Shown: positions 1,843 through 21,220 of the stretch, piece by piece
Layout: each line of letters opens with the position of its first letter
Position numbering within the stretch: position 1 is the stretch's first letter
From: Chloroflexota bacterium
GTDB lineage: Bacteria > Chloroflexota > Anaerolineae > Anaerolineales > Villigracilaceae
Assembly: GCA_016234485.1 (NCBI GenBank)
Contig: JACRBL010000040.1
Location: forward strand, 62,001-126,000
Reading direction: 5' to 3'
DNA length: 64,000 nucleotides
Notes under the pieces: model-generated
Told to the model about the DNA's origin: nothing
Seen by the model: the letters and a program-made list of their open reading frames with translations, nothing else
Databases searched by the model: none
Position numbers and translations under genes: made by a program

Positions 1843-3042
1843 TTAACTCACATCGCCTCGTTTGATCACATCCCTGCCATACTTCTCTTGTAACGAATCA
1901 ACCGCATCCTGCAACTTGCGCGACTTCTCCCCGCCATCGTCCCACAACGAAAGTTGACGGATGGGCGCGCCCAGCCCCCTGACTCCGACTCCAATCAGCC
2001 GCACGGCCTGTCCGCTTCTTCGCACGGACTTGAGGAGGGCCGCGGCCGTGGACGCGATCTCCTCCTCCAAATCTGTGGCCTGCACGAGCGTGGTCTGCCG
2101 CGAGAGGGTAGTGAAATCAGGCCAACGCAATTTCAGTTTAACGGTTTTCCCCGCCAGATCATTTTTGCGGAGTTGCCGCGCCACGCTGGCGGCTTGCTCA
2201 CGAATGGTTTTCTCTAACTCTTTGTCGCTACTCACGTCGCGGACAAAGGTCGTCTCCTGGCTGATGGACTTGGTCTCATGCTCAGTGACGATGGGACGGT
2301 CGTCGCGTCCCTGCGCGTGACGCCAGAGGTCGCGTCCATTTTCGCCGAAGCGCGCGATCAACTCAGTCTCGGGGAAATTGGCGATGTCACCGATAGTGTG
2401 GATGCCGATCTCGTTCAGCCGCGCCATCGTCTTTGGGCCGACGCCCCACAGCATGTCGGCGGGCAGGGGCGCGAGGAAGGTGGATTCTTCGCCCGCCGGC
2501 ACAACGGTCAACGCGAAGGGAGGGCCAGGTGGATTCCGCAGTTGAACTGCGGAATGAACGCGAGGGAGAGCTGCTTTCTTCCCAACCTCTGTGGCGATCT
2601 TCGCCACGAGTTTGTTCGTGGCGATGCCGATCGAGCAGGGTAAACCCAAATCGTCACGGATGCGCGCCTGGAGGTCCCGCGCGAGGCGTTCAATGGGGTC
2701 GCGGACGTCAGAGAGGTCGAGGAAGGCCTCGTCTATGGAAATCTGTTCCACGAGGGGAGTCAAGTCCCGCAGTTTTGCCATCACCTTTTCGGAGACTTCA
2801 GAATAGACGCGATGATGCCCTGATACGACGATCAGGCCGGGGCAGATCCGCAGGGCGCGCGACATGGGCATGGCGCTACGCACGCCAAAGGCCCGCGCCG
2901 CGTAGGAGCAGGACGAGACCACGCCGCGCTCCTCGGGGCGGCCGCCCACCGCGAAGGGCTTGCCGCGCAGAGACAGATCGCGCGTCTCTTCGACGGCGCA
3001 GTAAAACGCATCCAGGTCCAGGTGCAGGATGACGCGAGGCAT
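1843..3042 (-). CDS. dinB: DNA polymerase IV (Y family)
   Basis: Error-prone translesion polymerase of 399 residues. The catalytic start HLDLDAFYCAVEE carries the first metal-binding Asp residues. The palm motif QISIDEAFLDLSD supplies the second acidic pair. The HhH region GVGPKTMARLNEIGI and a little-finger domain follow. The ATG at 3042 is chosen because the DinB-conserved region begins there and a -10 box lies 6 nt upstream. A longer frame to 3225 has no homology. The loop around residues ~165-180 (PRVHSAVQLRNPPGPP) is longer than usual and is encoded by a perfect palindrome at 2533-2555 (see repeat entry). No LexA-like box is seen in front of the gene. Confidence 0.95.
   Translation of the reverse strand: MPRVILHLDLDAFYCAVEETRDLSLRGKPFAVGGRPEERGVVSSCSYAARAFGVRSAMPMSRALRICPGLIVVSGHHRVYSEVSEKVMAKLRDLTPLVEQISIDEAFLDLSDVRDPIERLARDLQARIRDDLGLPCSIGIATNKLVAKIATEVGKKAALPRVHSAVQLRNPPGPPFALTVVPAGEESTFLAPLPADMLWGVGPKTMARLNEIGIHTIGDIANFPETELIARFGENGRDLWRHAQGRDDRPIVTEHETKSISQETTFVRDVSSDKELEKTIREQAASVARQLRKNDLAGKTVKLKLRWPDFTTLSRQTTLVQATDLEEEIASTAAALLKSVRRSGQAVRLIGVGVRGLGAPIRQLSLWDDGGEKSRKLQDAVDSLQEKYGRDVIKRGDVS
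2533..2555. repeat. In-frame palindrome inside dinB
   Basis: A perfect palindrome with 11-bp arms (ATTCCGCAGTT / AACTGCGGAAT) around one centre base. Read on the coding strand it gives the peptide SAVQLRN in a loop between the palm and the segment ALTVVPAGEE. Nearly the same sequence, in the same frame, occurs in the ftsX-type gene at 19981-20018. The core GCAGTTGxACTGC also occurs in intergenic repeats near 7.35 and 10.1 kb. Confidence 0.85.
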
Positions 3043-3048
3043 GAGGCG

Positions 3049-3054
3049 ATTATA
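3049..3054 (-). promoter_or_regulatory. -10 box of dinB, placed for a leaderless transcript
   Basis: TATAAT on the minus strand ends 6 nt before the dinB ATG, so transcription would start at or next to the start codon. No Shine-Dalgarno sequence fits between them. Confidence 0.6.
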
Positions 3055-3218
3055 TAATACCCACGGTCGCAAACTACGTTTTCCATCTTTTAAAAAAACG
3101 CAGTTTTTGACCGAGTGCGGTATAGTCCAACGAGAGGCTTTCTCCGCGACGCTCGCCAACCCCAGTAGATACGGGAAACATCTTACAAAAGTGAAATTGA
3201 TAAGAACCATGGTGGGGA

Positions 3219-3247
3219 TTAACAATCCCTTTTAATTGTGGTATTGT
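3219..3247 (+). promoter_or_regulatory. Sigma-70-type promoter of the PPC-domain protein gene
   Basis: TTAACA and TATTGT are separated by exactly 17 bases, about 30 bp upstream of the ATG at 3278. A purine-rich ribosome binding site (GGAAAGGA) lies between. The divergent dinB promoter lies about 165 bp away. Confidence 0.65.
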
Positions 3248-3277
3248 GCAAAGGACAAATCTGGAAAGGAAAATTCG

Positions 3278-4417
3278 ATGAAAAAACAATTTAAATCATC
3301 CCTGCTGAAAGCGGTTTTTCTGCTTTCGTTAACCGCCCTGCTGGCCTCTGCCGCCAACCCCGCCTTCGCTTCACAAAGCGCGGGCGTGGAGGAAATTGTC
3401 TTGCAAGCGATTGCCCCCAATGATGATTTCGATTCTGCAACCAACATCACCAGCATCCCCTATCGCGTTACCAGGAACGATTTTGAAGCCACCGAGATTG
3501 GCGATGACCCCACCGCGACGCAATGCAACTTAAGCCCGGGGCTTGCCACGGTTTGGTATAAGTTCTCTCCCAGTGCAAACACCATGGTTCACATGGATAC
3601 CCTGGGCAGTAACTACGATACCTATATGGCATTGTGGACCGGGGTACGCGGCAACCTGACGCATGTGGCTTGCAACGACGACGCGAGCGCCTCCACTTTC
3701 ACGTCTGCGGTCAACATCACGCTACAGGGTGGGACAACTTACTACATCCAGGTGGCTCAATTCAACGGTAACACAGCCGACGCTTCGCAAAAATCCGTTT
3801 CGAGCGCGGGCGTGGAGGCTGGCACAACACATAAGTTCCGTCTCTTCCGACTTTACAGCAAGACCTATTATTCCAACGGAACGCATGATGGCTATGTTAC
3901 GGAATCCAGCGAGAATTCAAGCGTAGGGCAGGCAAAGAATTCGACCCTCACATATATCCGCCTGGGCGATGACGCACAAAGGCGTCAGGTTATGGGCATC
4001 GTTTCGTTCAACACCGCGGCGATCCCTGATAACGGCGTAGTGGTTTCCGCGTTGATCAAGATCAAACGTAGCGCAATCAGCGCCAACGCCATTTTCACCA
4101 CTCTCAATGGACTGAAAGTGGATATCCGCAAACCTTACTTCGGAGCCTCGCTCGGGCTGGCCGCCAATGATTTTCAGGCGGCGGCCTCCAGGCAGACGGT
4201 GGGAACGTTTAACCCCAACCTCGCCGCTGGTTGGTATTCGGCGAAATTGCTGAATACTTCGTTTGCGCTTGTAAACAAACTGGGGTATACGCAGTTCCGC
4301 ATTCGCTTCGCCAAGGGCGATGACGATGACTCAGTTTCCGACTACCTGCGCTTTTACAGCGGAAATGCCGCCCAGGCAAACAAACCCATTCTTATTATCA
4401 AATATTACGTGCCTTAA
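3278..4417 (+). CDS. Secreted protein with PPC-like and DNRLRE-like domains
   Basis: Exported protein of 379 residues, probably extracellular. Residues 1-32 are a Sec signal peptide (basic KKQFK, then a Leu/Ala core, cut near AFA-SQS). Residues ~45-165 resemble the bacterial pre-peptidase C-terminal (PPC) beta-sandwich: NDDFDSATNI, TVWYKFSPS, NYDTYMALWTG and CNDDASA are its typical strands. Residues ~200-379 resemble a DNRLRE-type beta domain (RRQVMGIVSFNTAAIPDN, then a YLRFYSGNAA end). There is no catalytic domain, so it may be a surface-binding or adhesive protein. The ATG at 3278 is preferred for its signal peptide and GGAAAGGA site. A clear terminator follows and the gene appears monocistronic. 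Confidence 0.8.
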   Translation: MKKQFKSSLLKAVFLLSLTALLASAANPAFASQSAGVEEIVLQAIAPNDDFDSATNITSIPYRVTRNDFEATEIGDDPTATQCNLSPGLATVWYKFSPSANTMVHMDTLGSNYDTYMALWTGVRGNLTHVACNDDASASTFTSAVNITLQGGTTYYIQVAQFNGNTADASQKSVSSAGVEAGTTHKFRLFRLYSKTYYSNGTHDGYVTESSENSSVGQAKNSTLTYIRLGDDAQRRQVMGIVSFNTAAIPDNGVVVSALIKIKRSAISANAIFTTLNGLKVDIRKPYFGASLGLAANDFQAAASRQTVGTFNPNLAAGWYSAKLLNTSFALVNKLGYTQFRIRFAKGDDDDSVSDYLRFYSGNAAQANKPILIIKYYVP

Positions 4418-4433
4418 ATCCATCTACAGCTTC

Positions 4434-4468
4434 AAAAAAGCGGTCACTCTCTCGGAGTGACCGCTTTT
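4434..4468. terminator. Intrinsic terminator after the PPC-domain gene
   Basis: Hairpin arms AGCGGTCACTC and GGAGTGACCGCT with a short loop, flanked by an A run on the left and TTTT on the right. Confidence 0.85.
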
Positions 4469-4616
4469 GATTCCCCCAAAGGGCGGAATTTGGCATCCAT
4501 TTATATTGAAGTATCCCCTGAGTGGGGATATACTTAAGAAACCTCAATAAAATGGAACGATTTTTAAAACGCGTTCGTCATTTAACTGCCTGTTAACGAA
4601 TCTCAAGGAGCATGCG

Positions 4617-7190
4617 ATGAACTTTTCATTCAAACTCGCTTCGATCGCCGCCATCCTGGCGCTATTGTTTTCATTCGCGCCGATCGTCGGTCCTGCCGCG
4701 CAACCTGTGGCCGCGGCCACCGTCTGCGACGCGGCGCAATTCGTGGCCGATGTGACCGTAGCCGATGGAACCGTCTTTGCGCCCGGCGCCACCTTTAAGA
4801 AAACCTGGCGATTAAAGAACGTCGGTACATGCACGTGGACGACCGGTTACAGCATCGCCTACGCGAGCGGCGAAAAGTTTGGTAACGTCGTCTCGGTGAC
4901 GCTGCCAGCCACGACCGCGCCCGGCCAAACCGTGGACGTGAGCGTGGACATGACCGCGCCCGCCGCCGCGGGAAAATATCGCGGCAACTGGCAATTGGTC
5001 AACGCATCGGGCGTCGCCTTTGGAATCGGCGCCAGCGCGAAGGGCGTCTTCTGGGTGGAGATCGTCGTCTCCAGCGGAGGCGGCGCGGGGGCCGTCTACA
5101 ACTTTGCGGATAAAGCCTGCGACGCGGCCTGGACGAGCGGCGCGGGAACGCTGACCTGCCCCGGAACCGATGGCGACGCGAAAGGCTTCGTGCTGAAACA
5201 GGCCAACCCCAAATTGGAAAATGGCGTGGCCGATGCCAGCGCGGGCTTGCTCGTTATGCCGCAAGCCGTGGATAGCGGATTCATTCAGGGCGAGTACCCC
5301 GCCTTCAAAGTCCAAAGCGGCGACCGCTTCCAGGCCATCGTCAGTTGCGAATATAACGCCACCTCTTGTTACGTGGCCTACCGCCTCGATTATCGCATCG
5401 GGACAGGCGCGGCTCAAACCCTCTGGACGTTCCGCGAAAAATATGAGGGACAGTTCTACCGCCTCAACCTGGACCTGAGCCGCCTCGCCGGCCAGGACGT
5501 GAAATTCATCCTCTACGTGAGCGCCTACGGCTCGCCCACCGGCGACCGCGCGCTGTGGGGCAACCCGGTCATTTACCGACAGGGAACCACGATCACCCCC
5601 ACCCCGGTGACGTTCACCCCCACCCCCGTCACGTTCACGCCCACCGCGCCCGCTTCGGGATGCGATAAAGCGCAATTCATCTCCGACGTCACCATCCCCG
5701 ATGGAACAGTGGTGGCCCCCGGCGCGACCTTCAAGAAAGTATGGCGCTTAAAGAATATCGGCACATGCACGTGGACGACCGGTTACTCACTGTTCTTCGT
5801 GGACGGCGAGAAGATGGGCGGCCCCACCACCGCGCCCTTCCCCACCGCCGTAATTCCCGGCCAAACCATTGACCTTACCGTAAACCTGATCGCGCCCGCC
5901 GCAAGCGGAACCTTCCGCGGCAACTGGAAATTGATGAACGCCAGCAGTCAGCCATTTGGCATTGGGACGAGCGCCAGCAATCCCTTCTGGGTGGAGATCA
6001 AGGTGACAGGCGGCCCGACCGTGACGCCCGCCACGCCTTCGCCCACGCCCACAGGGCCGACATCCACACCTTCTGCTGGAACCGCGTATGATTTCGTGGC
6101 GAAAGTATGCGAAGCGAAATGGGTCAGCGGCGCGGGCGTCTTGCCCTGCCCTGGAACAGACGGCGACGCGAAGGGTTGGGTTCTCACGCTCACCAACCCG
6201 CAATTGGAAACAGGCGCAACCGATACGCGCCCGGGTTTGCTCACCAATCCGCAGAACACCACCAACGGCTACATTCAGGGAACCTATCCCGCCTTCCGCG
6301 TGCAGGCTGGCGACCGCTTCCAGAGCATCATCAACTGTCAATACAACGCGACTTCGTGCTACGTGATCTTCCGTCTCGATTACCAGATCGGCGAGGCCGC
6401 GCCTAAAACCTTTTGGACTTTCGGCGAGAAATACGAAGGCCAGTATTACCAGGCCAACCTTGACCTGAGTTCGCTGGCGGGACAGGACGTGAAATTCATC
6501 CTGACCGTGATGGCGGGAAGTTACGCGGCGGGCGACCGCGCCGTTTGGGTTGCGCCACGCATCGTGCGCGGGACGGGGGCGGGGAGCGCGCCAGGTGTGG
6601 CCGCGTCCGCCACCCCGTCCGCGGGAAGCGTCGCGGCGACGGCCACGCCCACGATCCAGCCCGCGTCCGCTTCCGCGACCGCGACCACGCAGGCCGCTGT
6701 CGCTCCATCCGCCACCACGTCACCGCTCACGGATTGGACCGCGTACAAGAATACGAAATACAAATTCCAGTTCCTGTATCCGCCCAGTTCCACCGTGGTT
6801 GACGCGAAAGACGACAGCGCGAAAATTGACCTGCCCTTCACGGCTGGCACGACGCTTACATCCAAGTACATCAACGTCAGCGTGGTCGAGGGAGTCAGCC
6901 CGTGCAAAAACACGGTTGCCAGCGCAGGCGCTCCCACTTCGTCGGAGAATGTGACGATCAACGGGATCACCTTCCTGAAAGAAACGGGCGGAGATGTTGC
7001 CGCGGGGAATGTTTTCGAATGGGTTTCGTATTCCACCATTCGACCAGGTACGAACGCCTGCGTGAGCGTGGGCTTTGTGCTTCGCTCGCAAAACACTGGC
7101 ACAGATCCCGCCGCGCCGCCCGCCTTCGATAAGGTGGCAGAGTCGGCGGTCTTCCAGACCATCCTGTCCACGTTCGCGTGGTTGCCATAG
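4617..7190 (+). CDS. Secreted protein with duplicated NBR1-Ig and sandwich domains
   Basis: Large exported protein of 857 residues with a Sec signal peptide (~1-34). The body is a tandem duplication. An NBR1-type Ig-like domain (~37-150; WRLKNVGTCTWTTGY is its hallmark) is followed by a beta-sandwich of ~170 residues (~160-330; CPGTDGDAKGF, SGDRFQAIVSC, LAGQDVKFILYV). A TPTP linker leads to the second copy of both (~347-465 and ~490-665). A Ser/Thr/Ala-rich linker (~668-715) and a C-terminal PsbP-like module (~720-857, YKNTKYKFQFLYPPSS) complete it. NBR1-Ig domains outside eukaryotes are common in Chloroflexota exported proteins. The Cys pairs within each sandwich suggest disulfides. A role in surface binding is inferred. 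Confidence 0.8.
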   Translation: MNFSFKLASIAAILALLFSFAPIVGPAAQPVAAATVCDAAQFVADVTVADGTVFAPGATFKKTWRLKNVGTCTWTTGYSIAYASGEKFGNVVSVTLPATTAPGQTVDVSVDMTAPAAAGKYRGNWQLVNASGVAFGIGASAKGVFWVEIVVSSGGGAGAVYNFADKACDAAWTSGAGTLTCPGTDGDAKGFVLKQANPKLENGVADASAGLLVMPQAVDSGFIQGEYPAFKVQSGDRFQAIVSCEYNATSCYVAYRLDYRIGTGAAQTLWTFREKYEGQFYRLNLDLSRLAGQDVKFILYVSAYGSPTGDRALWGNPVIYRQGTTITPTPVTFTPTPVTFTPTAPASGCDKAQFISDVTIPDGTVVAPGATFKKVWRLKNIGTCTWTTGYSLFFVDGEKMGGPTTAPFPTAVIPGQTIDLTVNLIAPAASGTFRGNWKLMNASSQPFGIGTSASNPFWVEIKVTGGPTVTPATPSPTPTGPTSTPSAGTAYDFVAKVCEAKWVSGAGVLPCPGTDGDAKGWVLTLTNPQLETGATDTRPGLLTNPQNTTNGYIQGTYPAFRVQAGDRFQSIINCQYNATSCYVIFRLDYQIGEAAPKTFWTFGEKYEGQYYQANLDLSSLAGQDVKFILTVMAGSYAAGDRAVWVAPRIVRGTGAGSAPGVAASATPSAGSVAATATPTIQPASASATATTQAAVAPSATTSPLTDWTAYKNTKYKFQFLYPPSSTVVDAKDDSAKIDLPFTAGTTLTSKYINVSVVEGVSPCKNTVASAGAPTSSENVTINGITFLKETGGDVAAGNVFEWVSYSTIRPGTNACVSVGFVLRSQNTGTDPAAPPAFDKVAESAVFQTILSTFAWLP

Positions 7191-7229
7191 GTTTCCACTG
7201 GCGAACTTTCATGTGGAGCCTATGTAAAA

Positions 7230-7258
7230 AGTGGGGCGAGATATTATCTCGCCACTAC
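7230..7258. repeat. Palindrome of the GTAG...CTAC type
   Basis: Imperfect palindrome centred on CGAGATATTATCTCG with outer GTGG/CCACTAC. The same core occurs inside the mannosidase gene at 33747-33773. Confidence 0.65.
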
Positions 7259-7277
7259 ATCTGACGATAGTAAAAAG

Positions 7278-7305
7278 TGATGACCGTCAATTCTGGCGGT
7301 CATCA
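7278..7305. terminator. Hairpin downstream of the NBR1-Ig gene
   Basis: Arms TGATGACCG and CGGTCATCA around a 10-base loop. It lacks a T run, so it may be a weak terminator or only an mRNA-stabilising hairpin. Confidence 0.4.
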
Positions 7306-7344
7306 TCCGATTCATAAGAACCGGCTTGAATATCGGATCTCAAA

Positions 7345-7414
7345 GTTCGCGAGCAGTTGTACTGCGAGCCGTCAGCACGATTTGCCAGGCAAATCGAACT
7401 GCTGACGAAACACA
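7345..7414. repeat. Left copy of a 70-bp inverted repeat pair
   Basis: About 70 bp beginning GTTCGCGAGCAGTTG and ending GACGAAACACA. It recurs in inverted orientation at 10028-10097 with only a few mismatches. Internally it contains smaller palindromes: GCAGT-TGT-ACTGC and GATTTGCC-A-GGCAAATC. The pair brackets the response regulator, histidine kinase and sigma factor genes. Confidence 0.85.
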
Positions 7415-7452
7415 TTGGTTGTTGATGGAACCTTGCGCGGCTGAGTTGCGTT

Positions 7453-8184
7453 ATGCCCATGCAAAAAATGAAAGACGACCGCCCCCTCATTCTGCTCGCG
7501 GATGACGACCCGTCCATTGCGGATACGCTCGCGCCGTTCCTGGAACGCGCGGGCTTCCACGTGTTGACGGTCTCCAACGGCGCGGCCGCATTGGACAAGG
7601 TTCATTCGCATCGCCCCGCGCTGGTGATTTTGGACGTGTTGATGCCGCGCATGGACGGGCGCGAAGTGTTGCGTCGCATGCGCCGCGAAAATTTGTGGAT
7701 TCCCACCATCCTACTCACGCAAGTGGGAGAATCTTCGGAACGAGCGCTCGCGCTCGAAGAAGGCGCGGACGATTACCTGAACAAGCCCTTCGATCCGCAT
7801 GAACTGTTGGCGCGCGCCCGCGCCGTGTTACGACGCGCCCGCCCTGGCGAACGCTCGCTCTCCACCTCGTGGGCGCTGACTGCCCTCGATCTTTCCCTCG
7901 ACCGACGCGCCCGCCGCGCATCCTTGAGCGGCGAGACGCTCGAACTGACCCCCAAAGCCTTTGCCGTGCTGGAATACCTGATGACGCATCCCGATGAATG
8001 CGTACGGCGCGAACGCCTGCTCGAGGCTGTTTGGGGCTGGGAATATCCCGCGGGCGCGCGCACCGTGGACACGCGCATGGCCGAGTTGCGCCGCGCGTTG
8101 AACGACAATCCCGAAGAGCCGCGCTACATTGAAACCGTCCCCGCTGAAGGGTATCGGTTCATTGCCCCCGTGAAAGGTGAGTAA
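7453..8184 (+). CDS. OmpR/PhoB-family response regulator
   Basis: Two-component response regulator of 243 residues. The receiver domain (~10-125) has the acidic pocket DDD, the phospho-acceptor Asp in VILDVLMPRMDG, a Thr in LLTQ and the Lys in NKPFDP. The C-terminal winged helix (~145-238) is of OmpR type (LELTPKAFAVLEYLMTHPDE, then RTVDTRMAELRRALND, ending YRFIAPV). The kinase gene follows after 59 nt, so this is a cognate pair. A later in-frame ATG at 7459 or 7468 is possible because no Shine-Dalgarno is evident. The targets may include the neighbouring sigma factor gene; that is inference. Confidence 0.93.
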   Translation: MPMQKMKDDRPLILLADDDPSIADTLAPFLERAGFHVLTVSNGAAALDKVHSHRPALVILDVLMPRMDGREVLRRMRRENLWIPTILLTQVGESSERALALEEGADDYLNKPFDPHELLARARAVLRRARPGERSLSTSWALTALDLSLDRRARRASLSGETLELTPKAFAVLEYLMTHPDECVRRERLLEAVWGWEYPAGARTVDTRMAELRRALNDNPEEPRYIETVPAEGYRFIAPVKGE

Positions 8185-8243
8185 CACACGCTAGCCCTGG
8201 CGTGCAAGAGCCAGGGAAATTAATTTTGCGGTACTGTTTCGCC

Positions 8244-9206
8244 ATGCCACTCTTCCTACGCTTCCTCAACTGGCTTGCAAACTGGCGCCTCCTGCGGACG
8301 GTGATTGTCCTCACGCCTGCTGTCTTCGGCGCGCTGATCTCCGCCTTCTTGCAGGCTTATTATCAGCCTGTGCCGTTGCTGGCCTTCCGCGTGGATATTG
8401 GCATGATGGGCTTCATTCTCGGCGTCGTCATGTCCATCGTCCTGGCCGCGTATTTCTTCGGCGAGACCTCGCGCGGCTGGTACGCGCGCCGCGAAGTGGA
8501 CGAGATCGTCTCGCAGACCGAGGAGGGGCGCAGGCAATTTATCCGCAGGCTCGACCACGAGATCAAGAATCCGCTCACGGGGATGCAGGTGGCGCTGGTC
8601 AACATGTCGGAGGCCGCGGCCGAAACGGACAGAAAACGCGCGGGAGAAAATGCCCGCATCGCGGTGGAACGTCTGAAACGATTGCTGGCCGATTTGCGAA
8701 AACTGGCCGAGTTGGAGGAACGTCCGCTCGAGCGCCTGCCCGTGGACATCCCCGAACTGCTCGAGGAAGTGGCCGAAGCCGTGGAGACTCTGCCCGCCGC
8801 GCAGGATCGAAAAGTGCATCTGCTGATCGCGCGCGTCCCCTGGCCGTATCCGCCTGTGACGGGCGACCGCGACCTGCTGGGGTTGGTCTTTTACAACCTT
8901 GTGGAAAACGCGCTCAAATTCACGGGCGCGAATGATTCGGTGGAAGTGCGCGCGTTGGAAGACGGACGCTCCATCGTGGTGGAAGTGGCCGATAGCGGCG
9001 TGGGCATCCCGCCCGAAGAATTGATGCGAATTTTCGAGGAACTTTATCGCGGCGTAAACGCGCGCGGCACGGAGGGATCGGGACTCGGTCTCGCGTTGGC
9101 GCGGCGCATCGTCTACCTGCACGGCGGCTTGGTCGAAGTCCGCTCGCGGCAGGACGACCCGCGCGGCACCGTGTTTACTGTCCGATTGCCTGTTGGGAAA
9201 AAGTAA
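8244..9206 (+). CDS. Membrane sensor histidine kinase
   Basis: Histidine kinase of 320 residues. Two hydrophobic helices (~18-43 and ~50-78) lie close together, so there is almost no extracytoplasmic sensor and the signal is probably sensed in or at the membrane. The dimerisation box is RLDHEIKNPLTGMQVAL with the phospho-accepting His near residue 113. The ATP-binding domain has NLVENALKFTG (N box), DSGVGIPPEEL (G1), FEELYRG (F box) and GSGLGLALARRI (G2). The ATG at 8244 gives the most compact membrane start. A small hairpin (CCCTGG / CCAGGG) lies between this gene and the upstream response regulator gene. Confidence 0.92.
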   Translation: MPLFLRFLNWLANWRLLRTVIVLTPAVFGALISAFLQAYYQPVPLLAFRVDIGMMGFILGVVMSIVLAAYFFGETSRGWYARREVDEIVSQTEEGRRQFIRRLDHEIKNPLTGMQVALVNMSEAAAETDRKRAGENARIAVERLKRLLADLRKLAELEERPLERLPVDIPELLEEVAEAVETLPAAQDRKVHLLIARVPWPYPPVTGDRDLLGLVFYNLVENALKFTGANDSVEVRALEDGRSIVVEVADSGVGIPPEELMRIFEELYRGVNARGTEGSGLGLALARRIVYLHGGLVEVRSRQDDPRGTVFTVRLPVGKK

Positions 9207-9227
9207 ACTGGCTCTTCGGAAAAAGCC

Positions 9228-9311: not shown

Positions 9312-9373
9312 CAGTCGTTTTCCCTGTTACAAAACCGTGACATGCCTGAAACAGGCTGGTAACAACGGGGGGG

Positions 9374-9379: not shown

Positions 9380-9385
9380 ATAAAT

Positions 9386-10015: not shown

Positions 10016-10027
10016 CCAAATGTGCTC

Positions 10028-10097
10028 CGTGTTTCGTTAGCAGTTCAATTTGCTTGGCAAATCGTGCTGACGGCTCGCAGTCCAACTGCTCGCGAAC
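10028..10097. repeat. Right copy of the 70-bp inverted repeat pair
   Basis: Reverse complement of 7345-7414 with four or five differences. Right beside it (10111-10131) is a separate palindrome, GGATGCAGT-TGC-ACTGCATCC, with the same CAGTTGxACTG core as the in-gene palindromes of dinB and ftsX. Confidence 0.85.
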
Positions 10098-10110
10098 AGC
10101 CGCCAGTTTT

Positions 10111-10131
10111 GGATGCAGTTGCACTGCATCC
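10111..10131. repeat. Palindrome with CAGTTGxACTG core
   Basis: Perfect 9-bp arms (GGATGCAGT / ACTGCATCC) with loop TGC, between the sigma factor and lipoprotein genes. It is a further member of the palindrome family found in frame in dinB and ftsX. Confidence 0.7.
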
Positions 10132-10167
10132 TGCTTGCGAACAAACTATTAACCCAAACGAGAAACC

Positions 10168-12177: not shown

Positions 12178-12192
12178 TTTCAATCGGTCAGC

Positions 12193-14139: not shown

Positions 14140-14165
14140 TTTTTGTAAACCGTCTTTCGATAATT

Positions 14166-14816
14166 TCAGCGTATTTCAAAGAGGCTGTTCCAACCCAGGA
14201 TCATCCAGACTTCAATAGGAATGGATAACATGAGAGTCAATGCGCTCACCGCATGATTGGGCAATGGCAGGGCGTTTACCTGCAACCAAAGGAAGCCCAG
14301 AATGATGAGGATGGAACCCGTCCACGCGAGCGCGGAGGAAAGCCAGGGAGCGCGTCCCTGCTCGGTTGGAATCAAGTCATCCAGCACATACACCGTGGAC
14401 GCAAAATCGGATTGTAGAAGCGAGTGGTACATGCTTCCGCGCTGTCCTGCCGTTTGGCGGGAAAAGCAGACGAATACATCCCCCTCCCGTGAGTTGGATC
14501 GGACGAGATTCACCCAATCTTTGCCGATTTCGATTCTGGTTTCAAACGCGAGCGCCTCATCCCGCACCATGGCGGAAAGGATGACAAGTTGCCGCCTCAG
14601 GCTGGATTCCTGCAACTTGTCGGAGCAAAGCCCGAGGAACAGGATGGGAGAGTGGAACGCCTCCGCGATGTCCAGGATGCGGCGGGCGACGGCGGGCGCG
14701 TCCATTTCGGAATCGGACACGAGGACAACCAGGCGGCGATTCGTCTGCGCCGCGCGTTCGTCTACGGCCGCGGGTGGAGGGATGGTCTTAACAGGGAGAT
14801 GGTCTAGTATTTGCAT
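14166..14816 (-). CDS. USP-like domain protein with two C-terminal membrane helices
   Basis: Protein of 216 residues in the same operon as the KimA-like transporter (26-nt gap). Residues ~25-155 look like a universal-stress/nucleotide-binding fold (RRLVVLVSDSEMDAPAVARRI, then VFVCFSRQTAGQR and STVYVLDDLIP). Two hydrophobic segments (~163-182 and ~186-208) then anchor it in the membrane. I know no named family with this layout. The USP part may bind ATP or a cyclic dinucleotide and regulate the partner transporter. That is inference from context. Confidence 0.6.
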   Translation of the reverse strand: MQILDHLPVKTIPPPAAVDERAAQTNRRLVVLVSDSEMDAPAVARRILDIAEAFHSPILFLGLCSDKLQESSLRRQLVILSAMVRDEALAFETRIEIGKDWVNLVRSNSREGDVFVCFSRQTAGQRGSMYHSLLQSDFASTVYVLDDLIPTEQGRAPWLSSALAWTGSILIILGFLWLQVNALPLPNHAVSALTLMLSIPIEVWMILGWNSLFEIR

Positions 14817-14894
14817 GGGACCTCACAGATGGACAAATCTTAATTCCCCGCTGTTAAATGGCGACAAAGAAATTCCCCAATCTCATAAAGAACA

Positions 14895-14922
14895 AATAAA
14901 AACGCCCTTTTGCAAGGGCGTT
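14895..14922 (-). terminator. Terminator after the KdpE-like gene
   Basis: Read on the minus strand: arms AACGCCCTT and AAGGGCGTT with a short loop, followed by TTTTATTTG. Confidence 0.7.
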
Positions 14923-14937
14923 GTAAGTTGAATTGAC

Positions 14938-15000
14938 GGACTCCAAAGTCTCCGACTTTGGAGTTTGTTGGGAGCGCTCCAACGTCAGAGACGTTGGAGT
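14938..15000. repeat. Two adjacent palindromes of the ACTCCAAAGTC family
   Basis: First palindrome ACTCCAAAGTC-TCC-GACTTTGGAGT (14940-14964), second CTCCAACGTC-AGA-GACGTTGGAG (14977-14999). The first is nearly the same sequence as the palindrome found in frame inside the alcohol dehydrogenase gene (46992-47021). Confidence 0.8.
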
Positions 15001-15014
15001 CCAAATCATCCGAG

Positions 15015-15710
15015 TCATTCCTCCGCAATAAACCGATAGCCGATCCCAGGCTCGGTGAGGATCACCTGTGGGCGTTCGGGATCTTCCTCCAATTTCTTTC
15101 GCAGTTGACGCATGTACACCCGCAAATACTCAGTGTGATCGGCGTCGGCGGGACCCCAAACGTGGACGAGAATGCTCTGGTGCGTGAGCACGCGTCCATG
15201 ATTGGAGGCGAGATACGATAGCAATTTATGCTCCGTGCCAGTCAGTTTGACCTCCTCCTCGCCGCGCTTAACGATGTGCCAAGCCAGGTCAATGGTCAAC
15301 GCGCCCGCGCGCACAATTTTGCTTTGCTCGGATTTCCTGCTCGCGGCGTGACGGATCGCCACGCGCACGCGCGCCAGCAGTTCTTCGATGCCGAATGGTT
15401 TGGTCAAATAATCGTCGGCGCCTTTATCGAGCGCGGCGACTTTGTCGCGTTCGCTGTCGCGCACGGACAGGATGATGATCGGGATCTGCGTCCACTCGCG
15501 CAGGCGCGTGCAGACTTCCACGCCGTCCATGTCGGGCAGGCCGAGATCGAGGATCACGATGTCGGGTTCGTTGGAAGCGGCCAGCGTGAGGCCCTCCTCG
15601 CCGCGGCTGGCCGTCGAAACGCGGAAGCCCTTCTCGGTGAGGATGGTGCGGATGGCGCGCTGGATCTGCGGTTCGTCGTCAATGACGAGGATGTGCGGCG
15701 CGTTGGTCAT
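15015..15710 (-). CDS. KdpE-like response regulator
   Basis: OmpR-family regulator of 231 residues. The receiver domain (~6-120) has DDEP, the phospho-acceptor Asp in VILDLGLPDMDG and the Lys in TKPFGIEELLARVR. The DNA-binding domain (~135-229) reads LTGTEHKLLSYLASNHGRVLT, then HTEYLRVYMRQLRKKLE and IGYRFIAEE. The sequence follows KdpE closely, including GVEVCTRLREW. It lies downstream of the KdpD-like kinase gene on the same strand, with a repeat element between. No kdpFABC is visible here, so the targets may be the KimA-like transporter operon next door. Confidence 0.9.
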   Translation of the reverse strand: MTNAPHILVIDDEPQIQRAIRTILTEKGFRVSTASRGEEGLTLAASNEPDIVILDLGLPDMDGVEVCTRLREWTQIPIIILSVRDSERDKVAALDKGADDYLTKPFGIEELLARVRVAIRHAASRKSEQSKIVRAGALTIDLAWHIVKRGEEEVKLTGTEHKLLSYLASNHGRVLTHQSILVHVWGPADADHTEYLRVYMRQLRKKLEEDPERPQVILTEPGIGYRFIAEE

Positions 15711-15754
15711 GCGCGCACCTCATTGCAGATTAAAATATCTAACCCACTCTTGCC

Positions 15755-15843
15755 CGTCATTGCGAGGGCGTTCTTCCCGAAGCAATCCCCAACTCGACCA
15801 GGGAGATTGCTTCGTCGGGAAGAGCGCCCTCCTCGCAAAGACG
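15755..15843. repeat. Modular hairpin repeat (CGTCATTGCGAG family), copy 1
   Basis: About 90 bp. It starts CGTCATTGCGAGGGCG and ends with the inverted CCCTCCTCGCAAAGACG. It can fold into one long hairpin through TTCTTCCCGAAGCAATC and GATTGCTTCGTCGGGAAGA. It sits between the kinase and regulator genes. Confidence 0.85.
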
Positions 15844-15861
15844 AAACCTTGGTGAAACGAA

Positions 15862-17316
15862 TCATTCAGTCTCCGTATCAATAGGAAGTTGCGGGGGCGG
15901 TGCGCCGTCCCACAGCAACGGCAGGGTGAAATTAAAGGCCAGCCCGTCTGGCACGTTCTCGGCCCAAATTTTTCCGCCATGCGCTTCGATGATGCCTTTG
16001 CAGATCGAAAGTCCCAGCCCCGTGCCGGTGACGCGCTCGGCGGCGGTGAGGCGGAAGAATTTATCGAAGATGCGTTCGAGATGTTCGGGCGGAACCTGCG
16101 GCCCCTGGTTGCTCACCAATGCGTGGACCGACTCGCCGTCCACAAACGCGCGCAGGCGGATGACCGTTTTCTCCGGCGCGTATTTCACGCTGTTGCTCAA
16201 CAAGTTGGTGAAGACCTGCTCCATCTGCAAAAAGTCCACAGGCACGAGCGGTAAATTCTCTGGCACATCCATTTCGAGACGATGCTCACCGATCAGGTTC
16301 TTCATGCGCGCCAGCACGGTCTCCACGATTTCGCGCAAAATGTTCCACTCGCGTTTGGGTTTGAGCGCGCCCGATTCAATGCGCGACATATCGAGCAGGT
16401 TGCCCACCAGCAGGTTCAGGTGGTCGGCTTCGTCGTCAATCTGTGCCACCAGTTCGGGACGCACGGCGGAATCCCAACTCACTTCATTACTTCGCAAACT
16501 CGACGAGGCGGCTTTGATGGTGGAAAGCGGCGTCCGCAATTCATGCGAGACGGATGACAGGATTGCGGACTTCAAACGGTCGCTCTCTTCGAGGACTTTC
16601 GCGCGGGACTCAGCCTCCGCAAGACGCGCCCTCTCGAGCGCCAACGCGCCCTGGCTGGCAAAGGTCTGCAACAGACGCTTCTCTCCCGACGTGATGGCGG
16701 GCGCGGCCCTCCACAGCCGAATCTCGCCGAGCAGTCCACGCGCGGCCTGGATGGGAAGGATTAACTCGGGCGCTCGGTCTGGCGCGGACGCGTCGGGCAG
16801 GAAAAAGATGAAGGGTGGAGGCCCGCCGAGGTCAATTTGGACGCGTTCGGCCTGCGAGACCGCGAGGGCCTGACGGGCGAGAATGTCCGCGATGGCGCGG
16901 TCGTTATGAAGCCCTGCGAGGGCCGCGCTGATTTCATAGAGCCGCGTGGCTTCGCGCTCGCGCGCAGTCGCCGCCGCGAGGCTGGCTTGCATCCGCCCCA
17001 CGAGTTGACTGATGACCACTGCCACGATGAGGAACACCACGAGAATCACCACGTCTGCAGGACGATGGACAGCGAAAGTGTAATAGGGCGGGATGAAGAG
17101 GTAGTTGAAGGTAAGGAATGTGAGCGCCGCGCCGGTGATGCCTGGCCCCAGCCCCCAAAAGGCGGTGATGATTCCGAGCGGAAGCAGATAGAGCAACGCG
17201 ATCAGCGTGGTATCGAGCGCCTCGCGCAAAACGTAAAAGACAGCCGTGACCAGCGCGATCAAGGCGAAGGCCGCGAGATATTGCCACGAACGGATTAAAA
17301 AAGATGGGCTTCGCAT
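15862..17316 (-). CDS. KdpD-like sensor histidine kinase without the N-terminal USP/KdpD domain
   Basis: Membrane histidine kinase of 484 residues. Four close hydrophobic helices (~8-105) form the DUF4118 module of KdpD (ALLYLLPLGIITAFWGLGPGI, FTFLTFNYLFIPPYYTFAV). A coiled linker and a GAF-like domain (~135-255) follow. The H box is SSVSHELRTPLSTIKAASS. The catalytic domain has LLSNSVKYAPE, FDKFFRLTAAERVTGTGLGLSICKGI and GGKIWAENV. The long N-terminal KdpD domain is absent, which makes this a short form. The start at 17316 is supported by the membrane module and a -10 box 12 nt upstream. Confidence 0.88.
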   Translation of the reverse strand: MRSPSFLIRSWQYLAAFALIALVTAVFYVLREALDTTLIALLYLLPLGIITAFWGLGPGITGAALTFLTFNYLFIPPYYTFAVHRPADVVILVVFLIVAVVISQLVGRMQASLAAATAREREATRLYEISAALAGLHNDRAIADILARQALAVSQAERVQIDLGGPPPFIFFLPDASAPDRAPELILPIQAARGLLGEIRLWRAAPAITSGEKRLLQTFASQGALALERARLAEAESRAKVLEESDRLKSAILSSVSHELRTPLSTIKAASSSLRSNEVSWDSAVRPELVAQIDDEADHLNLLVGNLLDMSRIESGALKPKREWNILREIVETVLARMKNLIGEHRLEMDVPENLPLVPVDFLQMEQVFTNLLSNSVKYAPEKTVIRLRAFVDGESVHALVSNQGPQVPPEHLERIFDKFFRLTAAERVTGTGLGLSICKGIIEAHGGKIWAENVPDGLAFNFTLPLLWDGAPPPQLPIDTETE

Positions 17317-17334
17317 ATAACGAAGCCCATTATA
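17301..17334 (-). promoter_or_regulatory. -10 box and start-codon hairpin of the KdpD-like kinase
   Basis: On the minus strand TATAAT lies at 17334..17329, then ATGGGCTTCG, a 7-base loop TTATATG holding the start codon, and the complementary CGAAGCCCAT. Any mRNA hairpin would place the ATG at the loop edge, and the leader would be only a few bases long. This suggests translational control by local structure. Confidence 0.55.
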
Positions 17335-17373
17335 CCGTTTGGATTCTACCGTTCTAACGGGAAAACCATTTTC

Positions 17374-17515
17374 AACCACAAAGGACACAACCCGCAGGGC
17401 GCTTCGCAGAGGTCACCAAGGAAAAACGCCCGAAAAAATTTTTCCCTTTTCCCCCCTTTGTGTACTCCCTGGCGCCGCCCGCCAGGGCAGGTGTCGTGTC
17501 CTTCGTGGTTAATCT
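17374..17515. repeat. Dispersed repeat with AACCACAAAGGACAC ends, copy 2
   Basis: It begins CAACCACAAAGGACACAAC and ends TCCTTCGTGGTTAA, so the ends are inverted repeats. Inside are CGCAGGGCGCTTCGCAGAGG (inverted relative to copy 1 at 9228-9311) and a GGCGCCGCCCGCCAGGGCAGG block that is shared with the modular hairpin family. Confidence 0.75.
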
Positions 17516-17544
17516 CTTTCCCGTGAAATCCGCGTACAGATTTT

Positions 17545-18564
17545 TTACTCCATCACGTCGAACGTGATCTCCACGGTCATGCCCCACAGGATGCGCGGAT
17601 CCACTTCGTCCACTTTGATTTTGACGCGATACAAAATATCGCCACCCTGCATGGTGAAGGCCTGGCTGATGGTTTCCACCACGCCTGTCATCTGCGCGTC
17701 TTCGAGCGCGTCGGGGATGAGCGCGGCCTTCAAACCGACCGCGATCTTCACCACTTCGAGTTCGGTCAGGTCGTTGGTTTCCACGTACCAGGCGCTGGTG
17801 TCGGCCACTTTCACGGCCCAGGTTTCGGGGCCAGCCTGTTTGCCCAGCGCGGTGTTGACGTCCATCACCGTCCCGTCGAAGGGCGCGACGATGGCGAACG
17901 CGCTGACGTTGGCTTTGGCCGCGTTCAGCCGCGCTTTGAGCAGGGCCAGTTGATCCACATCGGGGCCGTTTTTCACACGGTCGTAAACGCGCTGGGCTTC
18001 TTCATGCAACGCCTTCTTGAGTTCCATATCTGAGCGCACATCTTCCAGCGTCTCCTCGTCCACGTCTTCGACCGTCACTGTTTCCACGGTCGGGATGCGT
18101 TGCCCGCGAACGTTGACGTACGTGACCTTCTGGTATTCGTAATCGCCGTCGGTCATGTCGTCGTACAAATCCTGCGCGTCCTGGTAGATCGTCTCGGCCT
18201 CGCGCAACGTGATCCACGCTTTGGCGCGGACGATATCCGCCGCGTCGGTCAATGCCTCCACGGCCTGCTGCGCGCTGACCAGCTCCAATTGCGCGGCCGC
18301 CAGCGCCGCATCCGACTGACCGCCGAGGCGGGCAAGGACATCCCCAGCCTTGACCTTATCCCCCACCTTCACGCGCACTTCGATCACCGTCCCGCGCGCG
18401 GTGAACGCCAGCGTCGCGTCCTGCGCAGGGACGAGGCGTCCCTCCGCAATGACCGCGTTCGCAGGCGCGGGCGTGGACTGCACGACGGGCGACTCGGTCG
18501 CGGGGGTTCCGCAGGCCGCGAGGACGAAGACTAAAACGAAAAACGTAATGGTTATTTTTTTCAT
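17545..18564 (-). CDS. HlyD/MacA-type adaptor lipoprotein of an ABC exporter
   Basis: Extracytoplasmic adaptor of 339 residues. The lipobox is FVLAACG (Cys ~18). The first biotinyl-lipoyl half is GTVIEVRVKVGDKVKAGDVLARL (~58-80). A long alpha-helical hairpin follows (~85-215; Ala/Glu-rich, with an acidic insert TVETVTVEDVDEETLEDV). The second lipoyl half is FAIVAPFDGTVMDVNTALGK, and then a beta-barrel and a membrane-proximal part. It is the last gene of the export operon, behind the FtsX-type permease. With no outer membrane channel gene in view, it fits the Chloroflexota-style MacAB-like export systems. Confidence 0.88.
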   Translation of the reverse strand: MKKITITFFVLVFVLAACGTPATESPVVQSTPAPANAVIAEGRLVPAQDATLAFTARGTVIEVRVKVGDKVKAGDVLARLGGQSDAALAAAQLELVSAQQAVEALTDAADIVRAKAWITLREAETIYQDAQDLYDDMTDGDYEYQKVTYVNVRGQRIPTVETVTVEDVDEETLEDVRSDMELKKALHEEAQRVYDRVKNGPDVDQLALLKARLNAAKANVSAFAIVAPFDGTVMDVNTALGKQAGPETWAVKVADTSAWYVETNDLTELEVVKIAVGLKAALIPDALEDAQMTGVVETISQAFTMQGGDILYRVKIKVDEVDPRILWGMTVEITFDVME

Positions 18565-18596
18565 AACAAACCTTTCTTGAAATCATCATTTCATCC

Positions 18597-18718
18597 CGTC
18601 ATTGCGAGCGCTCTTTGCGACACTTGCACCGCGCTGCGTTTGGTGCAGTGCAGGTGAGCAATCCCTCCCCCGCGCGAAGATTGCTTCGTCGGGAAGAACA
18701 CCCTCCTCGCAATGACGA
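18597..18718. repeat. Modular hairpin repeat, copy 2
   Basis: CGTCATTGCGAGCGCTC at the left end and CCCTCCTCGCAATGACG at the right. It carries an insert module GACACTTGCACCGC...GGTGCAGTGCAGGTGAGCAATC. Part of that insert (GACACTTGCACCGC and AGTGCAGGTGA) also occurs in frame inside the GT39-like gene at 53462-53489. Confidence 0.85.
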
Positions 18719-18736
18719 ATCAACTGTGTTTCACTC

Positions 18737-18771
18737 AATTACCAATCACCAATTACCATTTACCAATTACT
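18737..18771. repeat. ATTACCAATTACCA repeat string, supplies the ftsX-type stop codon
   Basis: Repeats of CAATTACCA with variants. Read on the minus strand (TAATTGGTAAATGGTAATTGG) its first TAA is the stop codon of the permease gene. Similar strings lie at 24112-24136, 41068-41100, 47339-47377 and 57070-57125. Confidence 0.75.
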
Positions 18772-21220
18772 CATACGCCAGCACCTCGCGTATCGTCATC
18801 GTCGCCGCGTTGCGCGCGGGGATGATGGATGCCACCGCCGAAAGCGCCAGCACCAGTCCCAGCCAGATCGCGTATCCCACCCACGTAAACACCGTGTCAA
18901 TCGGCGTCTCGAACACAGCCAGGCTCACGATGGTCGAAAGCAAATACGTGAACGGGATGGAGAGCAAAATCGCGAACGCGAACGAGATCATCCCGATCAC
19001 CACGCCCTCCGCGATCACCGTCCGCATCACGGCGCGGTCATCTGCGCCAATGGCGCGGGTGATGCCAATTTCGCGTGTGCGCTCCAGCACATTCATGCTC
19101 ATCGTGCCAGTGAGGCCCATCGAGCCGACCACGGCCGTCAACACCGCCATGATGAGCAGGAAGACCACCAACGTATCGAGACTTTCCACCGCCGTATCGA
19201 GCGAGGCGCTGCCCGCTTCGGCGTTGTGAAGTTTGTAGCCGCGGTCGCGCAGGAACGAGTCCAATTCTTCGGCCTTCGCGTCCTGATACGCGCGCGTATG
19301 TTTTTCAGTCACGAGTCGGAACATGTAAGCGCGGTTGGCAAGGTCGGTCGTCTGCGAAATATATTCATACGGCGCGTACGCCAGCATTCCTTCGCGATCC
19401 ACAAACTTAAAAATACCAACCACTTCCCAGGTTTCTTTTTTTCCTAACACGGTCACGTTCAAATAATCACCCGGCTCTACGTCGGGATAATATTTATACA
19501 CGGCCTCGCTCACGGCAAATTTCCGAATATCGCCAGGCTCGATCCAGCGTCCCTTCACAAGGATCGGCTCGATCAATTCGCTGTGCGCGGGCGGCGCGAA
19601 AATGTTCATGTTCTCGAACACGTCGCCGTTCTCATCCAGCAACTCGCCGCTCACGAACTGCCAGCCCTCCATCCGCACCACGCCAGGAACTTGCATCACC
19701 TGTTGCTCCATCTCATGCAGGCGATAGGGCGCGTCGAAATCGAGCGACACGTCCGCCACGAAATAGCGGCTGATCGCGCCGATGTAATCGTGCAGGGTCA
19801 CGCGTACGTTGAAGACCGCGATGAAGATCGCGCCGCCCATCGTCAGCGTGAAGAGAGTCAGCAGGAGACGTCCGCGCCGCCTGAACGTGTTGCGAAGCGA
19901 GATGACGAACGGCCGCGGGATGTGGATGCCGCGCTTCGCGAGTTGGATCGTGAACTGAGTCTGAATCCACTCCCAGCGCGTCACGTTGTTCTGCAGTTCA
20001 ACTGCGGAACGAACGTGACCCTTGAGGCGGCCTCCTTCGTCGCGAGCCGCTTCCCCGCTGATGGCTTTCAGCACGGTGACGCGCGATCCGCCAATGACGG
20101 GGGCGAGGCCAGCGATCAGGGGGACGAGCAACCCCACCAACGTCTGGATGAGAAGCGCCAGGGGGACGATACGATAGCCCAGCAGGTTAAAGTTCATCTC
20201 GTCGGCGATGAAGGCGGCCAGTCCGTACGCGCCCTGTCCGCCGAGCGGAATCGCGATCGCGAGCGCCAGCGCGCCGAACGACATGATCAGCGCGAGGTAC
20301 ATCGCCAGCACCTGCCTGTCGCGCCCGCCGATGAGTTTGATGACGCCGATGTGACGCGTGTGCTGTTGCAACAACGCGGCCAGCGTGTTGGCAATCAGCG
20401 AGCTGGAGAGGAACACGATCAAAATACCGAGCGCCATCAGGATGCCGAGAATCGCGTTGACCGTATCCGCCAGCGGATGCTTGTGCGTCTCGGAGAAGCG
20501 CGAGCGGATGACGTACGCGCCGCCCTTTTCGAGATTGATCTTCAACTCGGCGCCGAGGTCGCGAATGTGGAGGATGTCATCTCCGCCCTCTACCGTGGTG
20601 ATGTAGGCGCGGTTGTATCCCTGCGATTCCTGCAAATAACCGAGCGTGTCCTGCGAGATGTAGCCGAATGGCGAGGCCAGAAAATCGCCCGCGCCCATAG
20701 CCGTATCCTGCGTGATGCCGACGACGGGCAGGGTCTTGATCGAGCCGTCGGGCAGTTGCAGTTCGAGCATGTCGCCCACGCCCACGTTGACGTGCGTGAT
20801 CGCGTCGCGTTCGAGAATTACTTCGCGTTTGCCAGGGAAGGGTTTGCCTTCGAGCGTTGTGAGCAGGTTAACTTTGTTGCCCTCGAAATCATCGAAGGCC
20901 ACCATGTCAAGGATAGTCCACTTCGTTGTGCCAGGCGCGCGCACGCGGATGCTGAACACGCGGCGTCCCTCGGCCTCGTCCACGCCCGAAGTTTGTCGAA
21001 TGGATTCCAGTGTGGTATCGCCAAAGTCCGCCATGCGCAGTTCAATGTTTGAGGGCGTGTTAATCGCGTAACTCTCGCGCATGTCGTTGGCGATAATCAC
21101 AAACGCGCCCGCGATGACTCCAATGGAAAACACACCCACCGCGATGGATAGCACCACCATTGCAGTACGGGCTTTGTTATCGAACAGGTCGTGGATTACT
21201 TTACGCCATCTTGGTCGCAT
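18767..21220 (-). CDS. ABC exporter permease with two FtsX/MacB-type units
   Basis: Membrane permease of 817 residues. Each half has one N-terminal helix, a large extracytoplasmic MacB-PCD-like domain and three helices. Half 1 has a helix at ~18-42, PCD ~50-245 and helices ~255-370. Half 2 has a helix at ~450-470, PCD ~475-670 and helices ~690-805. The segment WRKVIHDLFDNKARTAMVVLSIAVGVFSIGV is a typical FtsX start. The two ATPases for it lie upstream in the operon and the adaptor downstream. The cytosolic linker (~395-430) contains RSAVELQN, encoded by a palindrome at 19981-20018. The stop codon lies inside a repeat string. Confidence 0.88.
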   Translation of the reverse strand: MRPRWRKVIHDLFDNKARTAMVVLSIAVGVFSIGVIAGAFVIIANDMRESYAINTPSNIELRMADFGDTTLESIRQTSGVDEAEGRRVFSIRVRAPGTTKWTILDMVAFDDFEGNKVNLLTTLEGKPFPGKREVILERDAITHVNVGVGDMLELQLPDGSIKTLPVVGITQDTAMGAGDFLASPFGYISQDTLGYLQESQGYNRAYITTVEGGDDILHIRDLGAELKINLEKGGAYVIRSRFSETHKHPLADTVNAILGILMALGILIVFLSSSLIANTLAALLQQHTRHIGVIKLIGGRDRQVLAMYLALIMSFGALALAIAIPLGGQGAYGLAAFIADEMNFNLLGYRIVPLALLIQTLVGLLVPLIAGLAPVIGGSRVTVLKAISGEAARDEGGRLKGHVRSAVELQNNVTRWEWIQTQFTIQLAKRGIHIPRPFVISLRNTFRRRGRLLLTLFTLTMGGAIFIAVFNVRVTLHDYIGAISRYFVADVSLDFDAPYRLHEMEQQVMQVPGVVRMEGWQFVSGELLDENGDVFENMNIFAPPAHSELIEPILVKGRWIEPGDIRKFAVSEAVYKYYPDVEPGDYLNVTVLGKKETWEVVGIFKFVDREGMLAYAPYEYISQTTDLANRAYMFRLVTEKHTRAYQDAKAEELDSFLRDRGYKLHNAEAGSASLDTAVESLDTLVVFLLIMAVLTAVVGSMGLTGTMSMNVLERTREIGITRAIGADDRAVMRTVIAEGVVIGMISFAFAILLSIPFTYLLSTIVSLAVFETPIDTVFTWVGYAIWLGLVLALSAVASIIPARNAATMTIREVLAYE
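19981..20018. repeat. In-frame palindrome inside the ftsX-type gene
   Basis: The central palindrome TTCTGCAGTT-C-AACTGCGGAA has one mismatch. It is extended by the outer arms TCACGTT and AACGTGA, giving 38 bp of near-symmetry. The coding strand reads VRSAVELQNNV, in the same frame and almost the same peptide as the dinB palindrome (SAVQLRN). Confidence 0.85.

Follow-up and report, generated by a model that had tools for sequence, protein, structure and literature searches.

REP-like hairpins with a GTTY tag lie in frame in dinB and in a permease gene of a Chloroflexota bacterium

Repetitive extragenic palindromes (REPs), their inverted pairs (REPINs) and the REP-associated tyrosine transposases (RAYTs), together known as REPtrons, and the Rickettsia palindromic elements (RPEs) are the described systems closest to the element studied here. 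In the parts of PMC3733652 available to us, to which our statements about that paper refer, REPs inside genes, many of them replication or repair genes, are already reported in several species, GTAG repeats are reported from Chloroflexi, and RPE-4 and RPE-6 are placed among the CGTC repeats, which apparently have no dedicated transposase. Here, we analyzed a window of 64,000 nucleotides from a Chloroflexota bacterium (contig JACRBL010000040.1, positions 62,001 to 126,000), in which two closely similar palindromes lie within dinB and an FtsX-type permease gene. We consider it probable that they are copies of a REP-like hairpin, likely mobilized by a RAYT and residing in frame in loops that would tolerate them.

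The dinB (DNA polymerase IV) open reading frame occupies positions 1843–3225 of the minus strand, with a likely start at 3039 (MPRVILHLDLDAF) by homology, and its product contains IMS domains according to Pfam. A previous reading made from the sequence only had placed a palindrome at 2533–2555, and these coordinates proved exact. This hairpin (ATTCCGCAGTTGAACTGCGGAAT, minus strand) has its core at 2538–2550, reads SAVQLRN, and carries a GTTC tag at its 5′ foot (2556–2559, minus strand; GAAC on the plus strand). The second palindrome lies in the linker of an FtsX-type ABC permease of 817 amino acids (18767–21220, minus strand; FtsX in Pfam). It is present where it had been reported, at 19981–20018, with an extent of 19980–20019 in our analysis; its arms do not match fully, the left one differing from the right by one missing base and one substitution in an otherwise near-perfect palindrome. 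Its core (19993–20005, minus strand) reads SAVELQN, and its GTTC tag is found at 20011–20014 (minus strand; GAAC on the plus strand). Both genes are on the minus strand and both copies are read in frame 0 of the core, in agreement with the shared orientation and frame described earlier, and both copies fall in loops, as had also been proposed. Within the window, two matches to the 17-base core were found with up to three mismatches, compared with 0.24 expected, and 2 of 100 shuffles also reached two. The window alone therefore provides weak to modest evidence against chance, and the whole genome is decisive.

The genome-wide search for the core, suggested by the sequence-only reading, revealed a dispersed family. 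Allowing up to two mismatches, the 17-base core occurred at 42 sites in the window's genome and at 1 for the reversed control, which upheld the claim that the two near-identical palindromes are of one kind. The 13-mer gave 213 genomic matches with up to one mismatch, compared with 49 for the control, and 55 exact matches, compared with 4. These data show that the window palindromes belong to one dispersed hairpin family. Amplification of the family is patchy, with 55, 6, 5, 1, 0, 0, 0, and 0 exact cores in eight genomes of one genus. Among 400 genomes of the phylum, 75 contained at least one exact core, and only G358 (27 copies) and G421 (14 copies), both of one other family, had at least 10 outside the bacterial family of the window's genome; outside its own family, the exact core is thus amplified only sporadically. 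A plasmid search with the dinB region returned no match.

Most copies lie outside genes. Of 53 exact-core copies examined, only 5 were in an open frame that scored at least 0.1 as coding-like, compared with 58% of 4000 random positions, and when any open frame was counted, the values were 10 of 53 and 71%, indicating that the hairpins are depleted in genes. The 5 in-gene copies fall in four genes: dinB, the permease gene, guaA (two copies), and a gene for a GT87 membrane protein. With G or C in the middle, the core is stop-free in five of its six readings and contains TGA in one. The core had also been noted between genes of the window, at 7.35 and 10.1 kb; sites do exist at 7353, 10077, and 10115, each with one mismatch to the 13-mer. 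The first two belong to longer elements with two hairpins, a REPIN-like one at 7345–7411 (plus strand), between GTTC and AAAC, and one of the same type in the opposite orientation at 10031–10097 (minus strand), each having a second hairpin with another tip. The latter is adjoined by a further hairpin with the core GCAGTTGCACTGC at 10106–10142 (plus strand), between GTTT and GAAC.

The family has a constant tip, GCAGT-nnn-ACTGC, a stem of variable sequence that remains paired, and, 5′ of the hairpin, a GTT(Y) tag. Fetched stretches of the window's genome yielded 87 distinct hairpins with this tip, 79 of which could be oriented by their loops (TGN or NCA), the 8 with other loops being dropped. 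GTT was present at −12 to −5 on the TGN strand in 73 of the 79, compared with 20 for the opposite strand. For 50 distinct arm pairs from this genome, none of 2000 shuffles reached the observed pairing at any of the stem offsets 1–5, each of which showed two to four pair types. A second locus set of 79 arm pairs gave the same result (0 of 2000) at offsets 3–6 and 8 and a weaker one at offset 7 (5 of 2000); its offsets 1–2 are mostly fixed by the search pattern. Where offsets 1–2 are unpaired, they are mostly opposed GA steps (GCGA-GCAGT…ACTGC-GAGC). Copies are single or arranged as inverted pairs of the form GTTC-hairpin(TGN loop)-hairpin(NCA loop)-GAAC. We also considered whether the varying complementary arms could be inverted target duplications; this idea was set aside, as hairpin constraint explains the covariation over the stem, and no DNA-level empty site was found to check it. 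Many dispersed and mostly extragenic hairpins, inverted pairs, and a RAYT gene flanked by the same tip (see below) are what defines REPs and REPINs in the broad sense, whereas the GTAG (or GTGG) or CGTC tag is absent. As the tag is GTT(Y) in 73 of 79 hairpins, we file the family in neither the GTAG nor the CGTC super-family: its anatomy is that of a REP/REPIN in which GTTY replaces the GTAG, GTGG, or CGTC tag.

The in-gene copies behave like in-frame insertions. The permease segment is absent from all 23 aligned relatives and from P0243, the nearest homologue in the database (identity 95%, or 96% in the alignment used for the tree), which has GGRLKGSPTRVSRWEW compared with GGRLKGHVRSAVELQNNVTRWEW in the window and, in the linker, KGSPTRVSRWEW at the place of KGHVRSAVELQNNVTRWEW. 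P0262 carries a consecutive pair of such peptides at this position (RSAVQLRNNTVYPAVELLDNN), whereas its 94% identical sister P0266 has none, and P0250 has RPAVQLL at this site. On a permease tree built without the linker (113 rows; 8 of 120 hits were unparsable and left out), the 3 rows of this type require 3 changes, all of them forced by well supported branches.

The DinB segment is likewise missing from all 24 aligned relatives, although G001, G008, G023, and G026 have other extra residues there. The orthologue comparison proposed from the sequence thus favored insertion in both genes, and the segment was not found conserved without the palindrome in distant orthologues, the outcome that had been named as contradicting it. 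Among the best 120 of 7998 DinB homologues, sorted into loop types by patterns that we set, 61 were empty, 7 were of the SAVQL/PAVEL type (our own included), 18 of the HRPST type, 17 of the KRIKAQG type, and 17 of other types. The four closest homologues, our own record aside, are 89–93% identical and cover several states: P0124 has the same peptide, P0125 another insert, P0127 none, and P0126 a tandem of six 12-residue units of a related peptide (RPAVQLLGERDV and close variants). The SAVQL/PAVEL type requires 7 changes on a DinB tree built without the loop, 6 of them forced. An AlphaFold2 model of DinB (mean predicted local distance difference test score, pLDDT, 77.6) places the segment, at about residues 157–175, between a helix (144–158) and a strand (177–180); residues 161–170 have a mean pLDDT of 52, with a short helix drawn at 165–169, and two solved DinB structures show an alignment gap at the segment.

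In the guaA gene (GMP synthase) of the window's genome, the stretch between AGFLGK and SQAF contains two in-frame hairpins. For many bacteria GuaA is essential, a fact that we do not use as evidence. We searched guaA in 150 genomes of the family, 144 of which gave a match, and read 69 loci, 63 of them parsable; as some loci were chosen for a long match and some come from outside the family, the share with a hairpin is not a frequency. The exact tip was present at the DNA level in the loops of G000 (two hairpins, the second read in another frame), G116, G084, G077, G104, and G126. By eye, we further labeled an ACAGT variant in G021, an interrupted copy in G004, and another stem-loop at the same place in G013 and G112. 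On a guaA tree without the loop (65 rows; 4 loci, G126 among them, were left out), seven rows of this type, including G021 and G004, require five changes, four of them forced, and one of the changes could instead represent loss in G090 and G094. Taken together, the trees suggest several independent arrivals of GCAGT-type hairpins in the same loops among relatives. As a separate observation, the guaA matches of G056 (L437), G105 (L439), and G045 (L438) break near query residues 310, 119, and 111, respectively, and additional DNA separates their parts, suggesting further sites of insertion.

A candidate mobilizer was found in relatives. We searched the Y1 family in 24 genomes, the window's included, and scanned 69 loci (29 returned and 40 fetched regions) for the tip. 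It occurred on both sides of the gene in two of them, L330 of G097, where either side has one hairpin pair, and L298 of G077, where either side has three hairpins; L319 of G118 had one hairpin, and at L304 and L308 the distance to the hairpins exceeded 1 kb. Against the REP-associated tyrosine transposase model NF047646, the proteins of L330 and L298 score 111 and 101 bits (cut-off 80); they also have the HUH motif and catalytic tyrosine of RAYT/TnpAREP proteins in the alignment (SSHIHAI; DYIHMNPV), and the only solved structure matched by the L330 protein is that of E. coli TnpAREP (4er8). Homologues of at least 62% identity were present in 5 of 150 family genomes: G097, G077, G024, G118, and G060. 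In G024, the tip lies on both sides of the RAYT gene, and 6 of the 7 hairpins listed have GTTY; the hairpins near the G060 gene are mainly of the ACAGT variant. Most of the more distant RAYT loci in the scan have other tips nearby, and four of thirty have no hairpins. Such a RAYT was present in 3 of the 10 genomes with at least 10 exact cores, a threshold chosen after the counts had been seen, and in 2 of the 140 others (Fisher p 0.002). E. coli TnpAREP contacts GTAG through E100, H101, and R104 according to the available parts of PMC6006769, and the GTTY-tagged branch has P, E, and F at the matching positions. In our reading, RAYTs of a branch with GTAG-like tags (e.g. L349 and L350) keep E100 only, with F and Q for R104 and H101; as these also lack two of the contact residues, the changed guide residues are a lead and not a clean explanation of the tag.

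The window's genome itself gave three Y1 hits: an IS200-like gene (L144), a 562-residue protein with a Y1 region (L145), and a RAYT-like gene (L146). No GCAGT-n(1–4)-ACTGC tip was found within about 1.5 kb of any of them, and we set these transposases aside as movers of the hairpin family. The L146 gene (204 amino acids; 1282–1896, minus strand; REP_Tyr_transpos 70.8 bits, below the cut-off of 80) has hairpins of another kind on its flanks, with the core GTGACAGTCAC…GTGACTGTCAC, at 1224–1268, 1892–1936, 2104–2148, and 3301–3339; L191 (C32:33736–37346 of this genome) belongs here too. That family has 9 genomic copies (control 0), 5 of which are in the L146 cluster, and two copies in an open frame of 975 codons, that of the neighboring MmeI-like gene, both read VTVTSQVTVTS. 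Many other RAYT loci of the bacterial family (L341–L365) have tips of their own nearby (CGTT-agag-AACG, GGTC-agga-GACC, CGCCG-agga-CGGCG, and GGGGCT-a-AGCCCC), and some of these hairpins carry GTAG-like tags.

According to the reading that we favor, a RAYT (an HUH tyrosine transposase) would move the hairpins as single-stranded DNA, recognizing the GCAGT…ACTGC tip together with the GTTY tag, and the enzyme would probably be of the type found in G097 and G077. The window's lineage may once have had such a RAYT, which would then have been lost while the hairpins persisted, or the gene may lie in the missing part of the assembly, which is 94% complete; deletion of a REPtron is reported for E. coli in the same parts of PMC3733652. 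Selection would remove out-of-frame insertions and those that disrupt the protein core, leaving the copies in loops, where the added peptide would be tolerated and the proteins would still work.

Several observations weigh against this reading. In the homologue search of the 150 family genomes, the window's genome gave no RAYT of this kind, nor did 7 of the 10 high-copy family genomes, making the link to copy number only partial; the gene of G118 is split over two frames. Hairpins flanking the RAYT genes of G097, G077, and G024 never have the TGA/TCA loop of the window copies, their loops being TGT, TGC, TGG, and similar, which together with their complements account for 33 of the 87 hairpins of the window's genome; this difference in loop bases led us to lower our confidence, very slightly. 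Branch support in the guaA, dinB, and permease trees is of the SH (Shimodaira–Hasegawa) type from quick methods. For homologues beyond the aligned relatives, hairpins at the dinB and permease sites are presumed, because the peptides alone were read there. For the in-gene copies, we found neither an exact DNA-level empty site nor a clean insertion boundary, and the 40-base permease palindrome adds just 18–21 bases net, indicating that some of the linker was replaced.

A stronger version of the RAYT reading, which we hold only tentatively, is that a GTTY-tagged RAYT branch with a changed guide uses the DinB palm loop, the GuaA LGK/SQAF loop, and the permease linker as landing pads, which would be real insertion targets and not mere survivors, so that new peptides would be written repeatedly and sometimes amplified in tandem. 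Alternatively, each gene might have received one old insertion, subsequently exchanged among species through short homologous recombination events in this region of the loop. The sequence CGTTCGTCCAGCAGTTCAACTGCTGGAC, which the guaA genes of G077 and G104 have in common with the first hairpin of G000 in the same frame, would fit such transfer, but the same loops also hold different elements (the stem-loop of G013 and G112 in guaA; in DinB, HRPST-type, tandem, and further inserts), trees give other groupings for the flanking genes, and the second guaA hairpin of G000 is in another frame. The 55 genomic cores need mobile dispersal anyway. We regard recombination as unlikely to be the main explanation.

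It is less probable still that the palindromes grow in place, through quasi-palindrome template switching in hypervariable linkers that would give covarying stems without transposition. Such a process is consistent with stems that are variable yet complementary, with the small difference between the permease arms, and with the six-unit tandem of P0126, which suggests local copying; it would not be expected to produce a constant 13-base tip at 55 places or a one-sided GTT tag, nor does it account for the same tip in the hairpins that flank RAYT genes. The fact that most copies are outside coding-like frames, and that some core hairpins of other phyla resemble terminators in our reading, could instead point to regulatory or terminator hairpins or to binding sites of a dimeric protein, with the in-gene copies being accidental. 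We consider this very improbable, as a binding site would keep its arms constant rather than covarying, and both the uneven copy numbers of sister species and the in-frame presence or absence among near orthologues argue against it.

Other repeats were observed along the way. Odd palindromes between GTAG and CTAC (e.g. GTAGAACAATTTGGCAAATTGTTCTAC) occur in the window at 33747–33773 and 53982–54008 and in L147–L166, as does a TCCGAAGTCTCYGAGACTTCGGA family with varying complementary arms. A more abundant family with CCGTCATTGCGAG / CGACGAAGCAATC words is also present in L147–L166 and the window, one 13-mer having 30 copies in 464 kb. In contigs of a Thermoflexales metagenome-assembled genome (L046, L076, L081, and L088), the core lies inside longer similar repeats (GTTTGCCGAA…TTACACACAATCCGG) that resemble a miniature inverted-repeat transposable element of about 100 bases.

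In these loci, mobile DNA seems to go into the same positions of coding genes again and again, and the empty, single, double, and tandem states of near relatives make up a natural series. The series makes it testable how REPs move and whether short mobile elements supply new protein segments, and the way in which RAYTs read their guide can be tested directly with a RAYT branch that has a different tag. T. roseum, whose repeats are compared below, is itself a member of the Chloroflexota.

Compared with REPtrons, as far as they are covered by the parts of PMC3733652, PMC6006769, and PMC8266576 available to us, the family agrees in its short, mostly extragenic hairpins occurring singly or in inverted pairs, in the tag 5′ of the hairpin foot, and in RAYT genes that have hairpins of their own type on their flanks; like REPs, it has some copies inside genes, repair genes included, and alternative complementary residues in the stem. 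It differs from them in its GTTY tag, which is not GTAG/GTGG or CGTC, in a stem sequence that varies widely around a constant tip, in the same protein loops apparently being hit in separate lineages, and in a window genome that has no matching RAYT. The GTAG-23 repeats of T. roseum (PMC3733652) are REPs of the same phylum with another tag. Among the matches listed, we found no report of this Chloroflexota family or of in-frame elements in Chloroflexota, the supplementary gene lists of PMC3733652 being outside this scope; the sequence-only reading, which knew of no such report for the phylum, agrees with this for the hairpin family, whereas GTAG repeats were already on record. Its likeness to RPEs, which we compared by description only, was right as regards in-frame insertion and absence from orthologues, and RPEs are described in PMC3733652 as palindromic and in frame in genes that likely encode functional proteins, but structure and tag, together with the RAYT genes that such hairpins flank, indicate a REP/REPIN-type element; unlike RPE-4 and RPE-6, with their CGTC tag, our family has GTTY and a RAYT in relatives. 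The element is closer to REP/RAYT systems than to the Rickettsia RPEs; its tag, the group of bacteria that hosts it, and its recurrence in the same loops are what is apparently new.

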